Assembly (NCBI GenBank): GCA_029225065.1
Contig: JAQXVT010000053.1
Coordinates: 1 to 64,000 of the forward strand
Reading direction: 5' to 3'
Source: Lachnospiraceae bacterium
GTDB taxonomy: Bacteria > Bacillota > Clostridia > Lachnospirales > Lachnospiraceae
DNA length: 64,000 bases
Shown here one piece after another: positions 4,635 to 45,768 of the stretch (its first letter is position 1; the number at the start of each line of letters is the position of its first letter). Under the pieces are notes generated by a model. The model saw nothing but the letters and a program-made list of their open reading frames with translations, was not told where the DNA came from and ran no database searches. A program made the position numbers and the translations under genes.

Positions 4635-5559
4635 TACTGCCAAATCGCTTCCAGATCCGCTTCCACAGCCCGCCTTTTGTCTCCTGCTCCGCTGCCGCTT
4701 CCCCAAACGCTTCCAGAATCGCATCCAGCTGAAGTTCCAGTTCCTCCCGGATCAGCTCTGTCACTGCAAGCTCCAGCTTTTCATTCTGGTCCGCGACTGC
4801 CTCGCGGATAATGCGCCTTAAGATCTTCTCAAACTCGGCCATCGTCTCGGATTCATTTGTGATTACTTCGTATTCCAGGTGATCCTCCGCTTCCTCCTGG
4901 GATTCCTGTTCTTGTCTGGCTTCTGTTCTATCATTCCTTTCCTCCTCATTTTTACTTCGGCCTCTGTTCCAGGCAGTATCTTTCCTGGTTTCATCCGAAT
5001 TTCTTTCCTCTGAGCATTTGTTTTTGCCACTTCCACCTTCGCATGTTTCACTTCCATTTTCCTCTGGTTTTTGCTGCGCATTTCCGATTTCTTCACCTGT
5101 ATTTTTTCCCAATCTGTGCCATCTGTTTCCAGCTTCTTCATTCATATTTTTTTTCGATTTCTTCCCGTCATACCTGGCATCTTCTTTTCCTGTGCACCTC
5201 CGGTTTTTCTCCGTACTGCACGCCTCTGTTATTTCTTCCTGCATGCGATCCGGCTGATCCTCTCTAACAAGCTCCGCCGCCCCCGTCTGCATCAGACTCG
5301 CCATCAGCCGCTCCCACTCGGTCATTCCATCATCATGCGCCCCGCCAAGCAGCAGACGAATCGCTTTCAGTCCAATCCCCTGCGCCTTGAGTTCTTTCAC
5401 CTGCCGAAACAGTCGGATATTTTCCTCGGAATAGAGGCGATAGCCCTGCTTCGTTCGCCCGACCGTGATTCCAAGTTCTTCCTCCCAGTAACGCAGAACA
5501 TGCGACTCAACGCCAATAAGCCGCACTGCTTCCTGCACCTGATAATTCCGTTCCTCCAT
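4615..5559 (-). CDS. MerR family transcriptional regulator with long charged C-terminal region
   Basis: YQVQEAVRLIGVESHVLRYWEEELGITVGRTKQGYRLYSEENIRLF. Confidence 0.9.
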   Translation of the reverse strand: MEERNYQVQEAVRLIGVESHVLRYWEEELGITVGRTKQGYRLYSEENIRLFRQVKELKAQGIGLKAIRLLLGGAHDDGMTEWERLMASLMQTGAAELVREDQPDRMQEEITEACSTEKNRRCTGKEDARYDGKKSKKNMNEEAGNRWHRLGKNTGEEIGNAQQKPEENGSETCEGGSGKNKCSEERNSDETRKDTAWNRGRSKNEEERNDRTEARQEQESQEEAEDHLEYEVITNESETMAEFEKILRRIIREAVADQNEKLELAVTELIREELELQLDAILEAFGEAAAEQETKGGLWKRIWKRFGSKKRHPF

Positions 5560-40511: not shown

Positions 40512-41096
40512 TCAGTACACGGAAAAAATATGACATAATTCTTTTTTTGAGGAAAGGCCGAGCTTTTTCAGAATGCTCGTCTGTTGATTCGCAATCGTTT
40601 TTTCCGACGAACGGAGCATAACATCCTCTCCAAGCATGCGGCGGCAGACACACATTTCCGCACCGGAAAGCTGCTGCAGCAGCGCTGCGCGGATCATATG
40701 CGACTGGGGTGTCGGCCCTTGCATCGTCTGCTGAATGGTAGGAACCAGCATAAAAAACTGACTTTTCATGATATACCCGGAAGCAAATGCCTTGCGGCTT
40801 GCGTTCAGTATCGTCTCCGAATCCTCATACCCGCTCAGAATCAGCACCTTTGCATTCGTCTGCTTCCGAATAATCCTTGATGCCTCAATCCCTTCCATTC
40901 CATTTTGCGAGAGTCCCAGATCCATCAAAACGATATCCGGCTGCTGCTCAAGCGCCGCATAAACTGCCTCATCCTTCGTTTTGCAGAGTCCTGTGATTGC
41001 AAATTCATTCTCAAGTTCCAGTGTCTGCACAATCAGATGCCAAAAATCATCGTCATCTTCCACAATCAGCACCCGAACCGGTCTTATCACCTGCAT
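40512..41096 (-). CDS. Response regulator with LuxR-like C-terminal HTH
   Basis: VRVLIVEDDDDFWHLIVQTLELENEFAITG receiver; SSEKTIANQQTSILKKLGLSSKKEL. Confidence 0.86.
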   Translation of the reverse strand: MQVIRPVRVLIVEDDDDFWHLIVQTLELENEFAITGLCKTKDEAVYAALEQQPDIVLMDLGLSQNGMEGIEASRIIRKQTNAKVLILSGYEDSETILNASRKAFASGYIMKSQFFMLVPTIQQTMQGPTPQSHMIRAALLQQLSGAEMCVCRRMLGEDVMLRSSEKTIANQQTSILKKLGLSSKKELCHIFSVY

Positions 41097-42510
41097 CTTC
41101 TTTTCTCCTTTTTTTCAGTCGGAACTTCCGACCTTTTCCCGGAAAGCAGAGAATAAATTCACTGCCATTCCCCTCCTTGCTTTTTACCTCAATCCTGCCG
41201 CCGTGCGCATTCATCACATTCCAGCAGTAGTACAGGCCAAGGCCCATATTTCGTTCCGTCTTTTTTGTCGTATAATAAGGTTCAAAAATCTGTCGGATAT
41301 CTGCCGCCGAAATTCCTCCGCCATTGTCCTTCACGGAGATAATTCCGCCTCCCGTTTTGGAAACCGTATAGGAAAGTTTAATCGTTCCGCGGCTTCCGCC
41401 TGCATCCGCCGCATTGAGCAGAAGATTCTTAAGCACTTCGAGCGTATGGATACGGTCACAGTAAAGCGGCTGATCCGCACACGCCGTAACCGTCACCCCT
41501 GCAATCTTTTTGTTTCGCCGCTTCAAATCCTCCTGCGCCTCCTCAAGCAGAGCGCTCACATCGCACCAGGCAGGATTTAATGAAATACTGTCCGAATAGA
41601 TCTGCGTTTCATACACAAACCGTTTCAGGTATTCCGTCGAGTGACGGATAATCTCCAGTTCCTCCGCTGAAACGCCTTTTCGCTCCAGCAATTGCAGGCT
41701 CCACTCAATCTTGGATAGTTCATTTTTCAGTGCATGGCTGACATACCTCGCATTCTGGCGGATCGTCCTTGCACTGTCCGTCCAGTTGTAATGCTCAAGC
41801 CTTAGCCGCATCCCCCAGATGCCGCCGTGAAACAGATGAAATACAACAAAGAACAGTACTGCCGCGACCATCAGCGCATTGAACTGCCACAGATCCTGAA
41901 GGCCATAGATCCCGAGCGCCTGATACGGAAACGACGTGAGTCCCCAGAACGCAAGCATCGCAATGATGCACAATGCCGCCCCGGCTCTCTGATAAAATTC
42001 ACCCTTCTGCCGGTTCTTCCACAGATACGCGATGAGAAGAGTGATTGCAAGCGCTGCGTATGCCACATTGTAACATCCGACGCTCAGACAGAATATCCGA
42101 TCCTTCTGATATACCACAACATTTTGCCACGGATAAATGATGCACATAATAACTGCCGGCAGATACGGCAGAAAACAGATGGGTCTGAAAAAACGGGAAA
42201 CCCTCCAATCTACCCTGCAGAAATAATAGCAGAAAATCATCACGGTTGGAAGTGCAAAATAATACAGCAGCGTACTCAAGGCACCGTACAGCAATTCTGA
42301 AAATCGAACTGTCCAGATCCCTTTCTCAATCAGTTTGGGCCCTATCTGATAATAAAGATACTCCTTTAACACACCGCCTGCAAAAATACAGCCGCCCACA
42401 AAGCACCACTGATTTGCCCGGTTCTTCGGATTCGACTGAAAAATCAGACAGAATACGAGCAGAATCAGCGCCGTAAAAATCAGAAGATTCATTTTCTCTG
42501 TCCACACCAT
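41053..42510 (-). CDS. Membrane sensor histidine kinase
   Basis: Seven or so N-terminal TM segments; NARYVSHALKNELSKIEWSL; SVKDNGGGISAADIRQIFEPYYTTKKTERNMGLGLYYC. Confidence 0.9.
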   Translation of the reverse strand: MVWTEKMNLLIFTALILLVFCLIFQSNPKNRANQWCFVGGCIFAGGVLKEYLYYQIGPKLIEKGIWTVRFSELLYGALSTLLYYFALPTVMIFCYYFCRVDWRVSRFFRPICFLPYLPAVIMCIIYPWQNVVVYQKDRIFCLSVGCYNVAYAALAITLLIAYLWKNRQKGEFYQRAGAALCIIAMLAFWGLTSFPYQALGIYGLQDLWQFNALMVAAVLFFVVFHLFHGGIWGMRLRLEHYNWTDSARTIRQNARYVSHALKNELSKIEWSLQLLERKGVSAEELEIIRHSTEYLKRFVYETQIYSDSISLNPAWCDVSALLEEAQEDLKRRNKKIAGVTVTACADQPLYCDRIHTLEVLKNLLLNAADAGGSRGTIKLSYTVSKTGGGIISVKDNGGGISAADIRQIFEPYYTTKKTERNMGLGLYYCWNVMNAHGGRIEVKSKEGNGSEFILCFPGKGRKFRLKKRRKEDAGDKTGSGADCGR

Positions 42511-42640: not shown

Positions 42641-42668
42641 TTGACAAATGGATGGAATATGATACAAT
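42641..42668 (+). promoter_or_regulatory. Sigma-A promoter upstream of the MATE gene at 42923
   Basis: TTGACA - 16 nt - TACAAT. Confidence 0.7.
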
Positions 42669-42725
42669 GCATCTGAAAATTATGCAGTGGATTTTTCCAG
42701 ACGAACATAACATGTCATCTTTTCG

Positions 42726-42758
42726 CCACACAGCACTCACGCTGTGTGGCTTTTTTTC
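42726..42758 (+). terminator. Intrinsic terminator inside the 5' leader of a MATE gene
   Basis: GCCACACAGC-ACTCAC-GCTGTGTGGC-TTTTTTT. Confidence 0.9.
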
Positions 42759-42922
42759 TGTCACGGACTCCCCTGCCTGTCCCGCTGTAACCGACTCAGG
42801 CGTAAGACACTCTGCCTCTGAGTGGTATACACAAGCAGCTAAGCGGATTGCGAATATCCGTTTTCATCCAGCAACAGATCTCTTCAGCCTCATCGGCTGA
42901 CTCAAACAAACCGGAGGTAGGT

Positions 42923-44254
42923 ATGAACAACCAGTTTATGAAAGAGAAGCCGGTCTTTCCGCTGCTTCTGTCCATGGCGCTTCCTATGGTGCTCTCCATG
43001 ATGGTAAATGCGCTCTACAACATCATCGACAGCTTTTTCGTCGCTCAGATCAGCGAAGATGCGATCACCGCGCTGTCACTCATTTTCCCAATTCAAAATC
43101 TCATAAACGCCGTCGCAATCGGTTTCGGTGTCGGATTAAATGCCGTCATCTCGATCAACCTCGGCGCACAGGAGGAAAAAAAGGCAAATCAGGCAGCCAC
43201 GCAGGGCCTGCTGCTCTCCGCCGTGCACGGAATCGTCTTTACGGCAGGATGTATTCTTATCATTCCGACCTTTCTCGGTGCGTTCACCTCAGATGCTTCG
43301 GTCATCGATCTCGGCATCCGTTACTGCCGGATCGCCTTTTCCTTCACCACAATCATTATGTTCGGACTTGCCTTTGAGAAAATTTTCCAGGCAGTCGGCA
43401 GCATGAAGGTGACAATGTTCAGCATGCTCTGCGGCTGTATCACAAATATCATCCTTGATCCGGTCCTGATCTTCGGACTCGGGCCGTTTCCAAAACTTGG
43501 CATCGATGGTGCTGCACTCGCAACGGGCATCGGACAGACGGTCACGCTTGTGATTTATCTCGTCATCTATCTGCTGCGCCCGATCCGTGTCAAAATCCAT
43601 GTCAGGGATCTTCGCCCGAATCTCCCGATGATCGGACGGCTCTATGCAATCGGAATCCCGGCCGTGCTCAACATGGCGCTTCCGTCGATCCTGATTTCTA
43701 CCTTAAATGCAATCCTCGCACCGTATTCTCCGATTTACATTCTGATTCTCGGTGTCTACTACAAGCTGCAGACATTCCTGTATCTTCCGGCAAACGGAAT
43801 TGTACAGGGCATGCGTCCGATCATCGGATTTAATTACGGAGCAGGCGAGCAATCGCGCGTCCGCAAAATTTACCGGCTCGTGCTCATCATGACCGGCTCG
43901 ATCATGCTCGTCGGTATGATCGTCTGCATGGCGATTCCAGGTACATTGATCAGCCTCTTTACCGACAACCCGGAAACGATCGCCGCCGGAAAGACTGCGC
44001 TGCGCATCATCAGCCTCGGCTTCGTCGTTTCCTCGATCTCCGTCACTTCATCCGGAGCACTTGAGGGAATCGGAAAAGGCGTTCAGTCCCTGACGATCTC
44101 CCTGTGCCGTTACCTTGTCATCATCGTACCGGCTGCTTTCATCCTCTCACGCCTGATCGGACCGACCGGCGTCTGGCACGCATTCTGGATCGCAGAGGCC
44201 GGGGCGGCGGTGATTTCGATCATTGTGTACCGGAAAACGGCGAGCGCAAACTAA
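42923..44254 (+). CDS. MATE family efflux transporter
   Basis: MNNQFMKEKPVFPLLLSMALPMVLSMMVNALYNIIDSFFVAQISEDAITALSL; GGAGG before ATG 42923. Confidence 0.95.
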   Translation: MNNQFMKEKPVFPLLLSMALPMVLSMMVNALYNIIDSFFVAQISEDAITALSLIFPIQNLINAVAIGFGVGLNAVISINLGAQEEKKANQAATQGLLLSAVHGIVFTAGCILIIPTFLGAFTSDASVIDLGIRYCRIAFSFTTIIMFGLAFEKIFQAVGSMKVTMFSMLCGCITNIILDPVLIFGLGPFPKLGIDGAALATGIGQTVTLVIYLVIYLLRPIRVKIHVRDLRPNLPMIGRLYAIGIPAVLNMALPSILISTLNAILAPYSPIYILILGVYYKLQTFLYLPANGIVQGMRPIIGFNYGAGEQSRVRKIYRLVLIMTGSIMLVGMIVCMAIPGTLISLFTDNPETIAAGKTALRIISLGFVVSSISVTSSGALEGIGKGVQSLTISLCRYLVIIVPAAFILSRLIGPTGVWHAFWIAEAGAAVISIIVYRKTASAN

Positions 44255-45560: not shown

Positions 45561-45768
45561 ATCCAGTCCTTCCCACGTATTATGTTTCCTTCGACACACT
45601 TTCCTGCTATGAAAAATAATCATGTCGATATTATACTTCTCGTAGCCGACCATGTATCAGTCAAAGCAAATCTTCTCAATCCGCTTCGCTGCCTGCAGAA
45701 TCATAAGAATTTCATCCAGTATTTTTATGAACTCTGATATGCCAAATTTCTTCAAACAATAATACAGC

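Follow-up and report, generated by a model that had tools for sequence, protein, structure and literature searches.

The MATE gene and its leader

The DNA analyzed here, a 64,000-nucleotide (nt) stretch of a Lachnospiraceae genome referred to as the window, encodes on its forward strand a 443-amino-acid MATE family efflux transporter (42923 to 44254; PF01554, 5.7e-45; TIGR00797, 3.9e-62), the putatively regulated gene of this study, whose ATG at 42923 is preceded by a Shine-Dalgarno (SD) sequence, GGAGG, at 42913 to 42917. Upstream of this gene and on the same strand, a promoter scan found a sigma-70-type promoter at 42641 to 42668, TTGACA-16-TACAAT with an extended −10 (TG), in which the −35 TTGACA (42641 to 42646) and the −10 TACAAT (42663 to 42668) are separated by a 16-nt spacer. 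This promoter had been named in the original prediction from the sequence, and it was borne out as an 11-of-12 match to consensus and the top promoter-like site across the scanned 6 kb. The same prediction included a perfect 10-bp terminator with T7, which also held up, as the terminator scan places an intrinsic terminator at 42725 to 42757 (+), with arms GCCACACAGC (42725 to 42734) and GCTGTGTGGC (42741 to 42750) forming 10 perfect base pairs around a 6-nt loop and a T7 run at 42751 to 42757, and ranks it strongest among the 10 candidates in this region. The promoter scan found no second promoter-like site on the forward strand from the terminator to the MATE gene, in agreement with the earlier remark that none was obvious before the MATE ATG. 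The predicted RNA from 42676 to 42757 has a folding value 4.6 standard deviations below that of shuffled sequences.

The upstream neighbor of the MATE leader is a histidine kinase gene on the reverse strand (41053 to 42510), and since this gene is divergent, the terminator does not serve it. We also observed that the divergent histidine kinase (HATPase_c) and a response regulator, together at 40512 to 42510 (−), adjoin the MATE gene and that the two-component pair and the MATE gene have a promoter region in common.

A conserved structured RNA between promoter and terminator

The approximately 55 nt from the promoter to the terminator form a conserved structured RNA with the consensus, 5' to 3', AAAAC, P1, GUGGAUUUUUC, P2, UUUUCGCCAC, and terminator, in which the final bases of the element, GCCAC, double as the terminator 5' arm. 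In the window, covariance model R1 matches this element at 42674 to 42733 (+) with a score of 48.3 bits (E = 7.6e-11 for the genome).

The element opens with an AAAA tract (42676 to 42679, +), which is found upstream of the conserved blocks in 122 of 136 homologous leaders compared to 38 expected from shuffles. In these homologs the tract is mostly exactly four A's long and the base after it is mostly C or U. The end of the −10 lies 5 to 10 nt 5' of AAAA in 78 of the 124 leaders with a usable promoter (10.8 expected), with a peak in this distance at 8 to 9 nt and a value of 7 nt in the window, and this spacing makes AAAA the predicted 5' end of the transcript. The P1 spacer follows at 42680 to 42686 (+); it is a small covarying hairpin in many homologs and only 7 nt long in the window. 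When P1 spacers of at least 9 nt were considered, 51 of 62 unique sequences had at least 3 contiguous base pairs, versus 36% in shuffles.

Downstream of P1 lies GUGG (42687 to 42690, +), the 5' strand of an antiterminator stem, and then AUUUUUC (42691 to 42697, +), the 5' side of a U-rich internal loop whose 3' side is UUUUCG (42720 to 42725, +). Between the two sides of the loop is the P2 hairpin, GACG...UGUC (42700 to 42716, +), with 3 Watson-Crick pairs and one G-U. The window P2 is short (3 to 4 bp) and falls in the CCNGAY..RUCAUC subgroup, and its three-pair stem appears in the predicted window fold when the antiterminator is forced. Across homologs, at least 4 contiguous base pairs are present in 72 of 96 unique P2 spacers, compared to 9% after shuffling and 31% after exchanging halves between sequences, and the first P2 pair occurs in all six types (A-U 33, U-A 39, G-C 6, C-G 4, G-U 5, and U-G 1). 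By pair count, P2 is found in two registers in the plain MAFFT alignment; in alignment A2 its register is mixed and 57.7% of cells are paired. The element ends in CCAC (42726 to 42729, +), and a terminator with GCCAC as its 5' arm is present in 120 of 136 homologs, versus 6 in shuffles. The terminator stem covaries, with pairing kept across 63 distinct 5' arms, and its loop is unconserved. Thus, when homologous leaders were checked for covariation, as had been suggested with the original prediction, P1, P2, and the terminator all covaried (62 to 136 sequences), which identifies the region as a structured 5' leader, and both conserved blocks were otherwise nearly invariant.

Two mutually exclusive folds

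No convincing antiterminator had been seen in this leader before. We found that one exists, as GUGG at 42687 to 42690 can pair with CCAC at 42726 to 42729 to form an antiterminator, or this CCAC can instead pair with the terminator's own GUGG (42746 to 42749). The antiterminator and terminator therefore have a strand in common, which is the arrangement of an expression platform. The GUGG:CCAC pairing is intact in all 98 distinct aligned sequences. At one locus (L249) the stem reads AUGG...CCAU, a G-C to A-U change in which the terminator arm is altered jointly, and in several leaders CCAC is replaced by CCGC with U-G pairing (four U-A to U-G changes). Because the pairing is so conserved, direct covariation evidence for it rests on these few changes. 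Most sequences were gathered by an exact pattern that fixes both blocks, and part of the invariance of these blocks is therefore due to how the sequences were selected; in the 28 sequences obtained with the covariance model and parsed, the blocks are likewise kept, apart from the changes listed above.

In the window, the terminator state has a predicted energy of −25.4 kcal/mol compared to −12.5 kcal/mol for the forced antiterminator, and the median hairpin energies are −22.6 for the terminator and −5.8 for the antiterminator. Since these energies favor the terminator, the gene should be off unaided and a stabilizer would be needed. Since RNA polymerase reaches the antiterminator first, a ligand could capture this fold before the terminator is complete.

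The internal loop differs in one group of leaders, in which U25/C57 (alignment A1 numbering) is changed to C25/U57, and some of the C25/U57 leaders precede nitroreductase-MATE operons. The variant with this coupled U/C swap in the internal loop, GUGGACUUUU...UUUUUGCCAC, was noted at loci L250, L260, L267, L269 to L272, and L275; part of these variants precede a nitroreductase gene and then a different MATE subfamily. This variant could mark a changed ligand specificity.

Distribution and associated genes

Within the genus, four of five other MATE orthologs (57 to 66% identity) carry the same arrangement of promoter, GTGGATTTTT, spacer, TTTTCGCCACAC, and a terminator with GCCAC at the start of its 5' arm; one genus member (L066) has the MATE gene and lacks the element. 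The original prediction had staked itself on conservation of the leader, and the leader is conserved before these orthologous MATE genes. The element was absent from the other MATE subfamilies inspected (L005 to L008 and L013).

When 391 genomes of the class were first searched by pattern, three more genomes (G362, G325, and G166) proved to have true copies, two of which precede the same MATE family; the copy in G362 has no intact MATE gene directly after it. An exact-pattern scan of named genomes gave at least 119 stretches. False matches, most of them within coding sequence, were removed, and about 110 stretches among the matches listed appear genuine by gene context, A tract, and terminator. 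The taxa among the matches listed are Lachnospiraceae, Faecalibacterium/Gemmiger, Negativicutes (among the matches listed, Mitsuokella, Megasphaera, and Phascolarctobacterium), Bacillaceae, and others. Taken together, well over 100 genomes carry the element, and these fall in Lachnospiraceae, other Clostridia, Bacilli, and Negativicutes. With covariance model R1, it was detected in 54 of 397 sampled genomes (about 14%) and 50 of 334 genera of the family, and it was rare outside the family (among 381 genomes sampled from the class, 5 had it, window included). In the class of genome G458, 4 of 201 genomes matched, two of them (L263 and L264) in a chance-like manner; weak covariance model matches at L263, L264, and L276 to L280 have no terminator and no exporter and were treated as chance.

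About 130 of the 138 collected matches lie directly upstream of a MATE or EamA/DMT exporter gene. The downstream gene is a MATE gene, mainly of one subfamily, in 114 of the 138, including four in nitroreductase-plus-MATE operons, and an EamA/DMT exporter gene in 16; for most of the remaining matches, the DNA ends before the downstream gene. At locus L081, a motif copy that looks genuine (near 5417, reverse complement) precedes an alpha-glucosidase-like gene and not an exporter gene, a placement that may reflect mis-assembly or rearrangement.

Comparison with known RNA families

Searches with Rfam 15 at the gathering threshold placed no family on the motif, either in the window or in 25 homologous loci, and the best matches in a permissive search of the window were far below threshold. 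This comparison, proposed with the original prediction, agrees with its failure to match the leader to a familiar riboswitch class, with the limit that an Rfam 15 negative may not cover guanidine-IV. No described MATE/EamA leader motif was found in the literature, in which coverage of subscription papers was incomplete, so prior publication is possible.

The trpB motif (RF04312; PMC11109978) is similar in that it has two hairpins, the second of which is the terminator, an antiterminator in the shoulder of the first, and a distribution in Firmicutes, but it scores 18.2 bits here against a 59-bit threshold, and its genes are those for an ABC transporter and trpB. The ykkC subtype 2d RNA (PMC7266159) is also an orphan riboswitch found before EamA transporters, but it has the large ykkC aptamer, and no ykkC/guanidine-I match was found at the motif loci in Rfam.

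The ENE consists of a U-rich internal loop between two duplexes and an A-rich tract (PMC11411715). A corresponding layout is present here, where GUGG:CCAC and P2 flank the U5/U4 loop and AAAA occurs in 122 of 136 leaders. By analogy, the A4 tract and U4/U4 loop may resemble the ENE triple helix, and we propose that the element may contain a U.A-U triple helix in which AAAA would be the third strand. ENE and MALAT1-type elements have been described in RNAs of viruses and eukaryotes, where they act in RNA stability (PMC11411715), whereas the element described here is bacterial, has its A tract at the 5' terminus, and apparently acts in antitermination. The SAM-V and guanidine-III riboswitches use triple helices (PMC6061858 and PMC5696562).

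A candidate riboswitch for an exported compound

By computation, the element is conserved, P1, P2, and the terminator covary, its two folds overlap, exporter genes follow it, and it lies at the predicted transcript start. On this basis we read the element as a transcription antiterminator acting in cis. It most likely represents an orphan riboswitch class that has yet to be described, and we put the probability of this reading at roughly 70% from sequence analysis. The riboswitch or attenuator put forward in the original prediction is thus strongly supported, as the leader is conserved before orthologous MATE genes and before an unrelated exporter family and an antiterminator is present. The fold layout and the type of gene suggest that the element binds a ligand and that binding turns expression on. 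With one RNA design outside Rfam recurring before efflux genes in well over 100 genomes, the element probably represents a chemical sensor, not described before, that induces export.

In such a riboswitch, transcription would start at or just 5' of AAAA, and in the nascent RNA the GUGG:CCAC antiterminator would enclose P2 together with the U-rich internal loop, onto which the 5' AAAA tract would probably dock. If the antiterminator were not stabilized, the second GUGG would be transcribed and pair with CCAC, and transcription would stop at 42751 to 42757, giving a default OFF state; a small molecule would stabilize the antiterminator and turn the exporter ON. The presence of two unrelated pump families and a nitroreductase points to a toxic organic compound or ion, and the candidate ligand is probably a toxic compound or a derivative of one that would be exported by MATE/EamA pumps and reduced by some nitroreductases. 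A more specific model, in which an approximately 50-nt aptamer at the mRNA 5' end would use an ENE-like U.A-U triple helix (A4 in the U4/U4 loop) as the ligand-stabilized antiterminator controlling efflux of a toxic compound that is common in the gut, is tentative.

The antiterminator might instead be stabilized by an RNA-binding protein, for which the same anatomy would suffice and whose gene could lie elsewhere. We consider this unlikely, as nucleotide conservation this high is what aptamers typically show, the element spans several classes and is upstream of almost only exporters, and no gene for an RNA-binding regulator is seen at the window locus, where the neighbor is the divergent two-component pair.

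The location of A4 at the predicted transcript start, and the C or U that mostly follows it, would also fit pyrG-type reiterative initiation, in which polymerase would slip on A4 and the extra A residues would block the terminator by pairing with the U-runs, in response to nucleotide pools. A slippage is common in Streptococcus, and B. subtilis pyrG is a precedent for prevention of attenuation by slippage. However, this process needs neither the near-invariant GUGG/CCAC nor a covarying P1 and P2, added A residues would not be enough to open a terminator stem as GC-rich as CCAC:GUGG, and nucleotide pools have no evident link to exporters, so we regard this explanation as quite improbable.

The guanidine-IV riboswitch (mepA motif, GGAM-1) precedes MATE genes (PMC7736828, PMC12186494, and PMC11611296), and like the element it is a short, two-hairpin, terminator-based leader in Firmicutes and a probable ON switch for exporters. 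The Gd4v motif (PMC9788692), a terminator-based orphan, is likewise found in gut bacteria, sometimes before MATE genes. In both, however, the conserved nucleotides that bind the ligand sit in the second loop, which caps the terminator hairpin, whereas the conserved bases here precede the terminator or form its base; conserved tip nucleotides of the guanidine-IV type were not found in 120 terminator loops, where no 3-mer occurs in more than 20. The loop pairing of guanidine-IV (A29-U72 and C30-G71, with AC 5') also differs from that of the element, in which GUGG is 5' and CCAC is 3'. SMR and PnuC genes are associated with guanidine-IV, whereas all 130 downstream genes identified here are MATE or EamA genes, with no SMR (SugE/Gdx) or PnuC gene among them; SMR leaders fetched as possible guanidine-IV examples contained guanidine-I only. 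Gd4v differs further in its guanidine-IV-like pseudoknot, the extra hairpin carried by its terminator, and its transaminase and GNAT genes. On this comparison, which for guanidine-IV is made with the published description and not by sequence alignment, it is very unlikely that the element is a member or variant of guanidine-IV or a Gd4v variant.

It is highly improbable that the element is a free small RNA of approximately 82 nt (approximately 84 nt in the original prediction) or that the terminator falls between promoter and gene by chance: a terminated RNA from 42676 to 42757 would be stable and may accumulate as a by-product, but the element is in line with and nearly always on the same strand 5' of exporter genes, the terminator is a competing fold, and its overlap with the antiterminator is conserved. 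Leader-peptide attenuation was excluded because there is no conserved reading frame, with block spacing in all three frames (57/48/31) and an SD-led open reading frame in 4 of 136 leaders, and a DNA operator fails to explain the variable-length covarying hairpins and the terminator overlap.

If the riboswitch reading is correct, the element would be a fairly widespread orphan class outside Rfam, with about 130 copies here, through which gut and other Firmicutes would sense a compound that they expel via MATE/EamA pumps. These pumps would gain a substrate hypothesis, the RNA switch would be small and directly testable, and its A4/U4/U4 core may represent, by its design, the first relative of the ENE triple helix in bacteria.

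Downstream hairpins and a dispersed repeat

The original prediction also listed later hairpins in the leader. They are present in the window; as parts of the switch, the hairpins between the terminator and the ATG were rejected, since they are absent from the orthologous leaders (L062 to L065). The CGGAT/ATCCG hairpin belongs to a dispersed palindromic repeat, a copy of which occupies 42831 to 42870 (+) (AAGCAGCGAAGCGGATTGCGAATATCCGCTT). The 12-base core of this repeat has 54 near matches in the genome, compared to 8 for a reversed control. The repeat is REP-like, and its copy at 42831 to 42870 is a separate, lineage-specific feature that is absent from orthologous leaders. A second copy lies near 45650 to 45697 (−) in the window. 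The repeat consensus is about ACAAGCAGCGAAGCGGATTGCGAATATCCGCTTTGA, with dozens of copies in the genome, many copies in congeners G002 and G019, and single copies in G023 and G038. It often adjoins another hairpin repeat, CATAAGGA..CCCGC..GCGGG..TCCTTATG, or an outer arm of CCGAGTCA/TGACTCGA.
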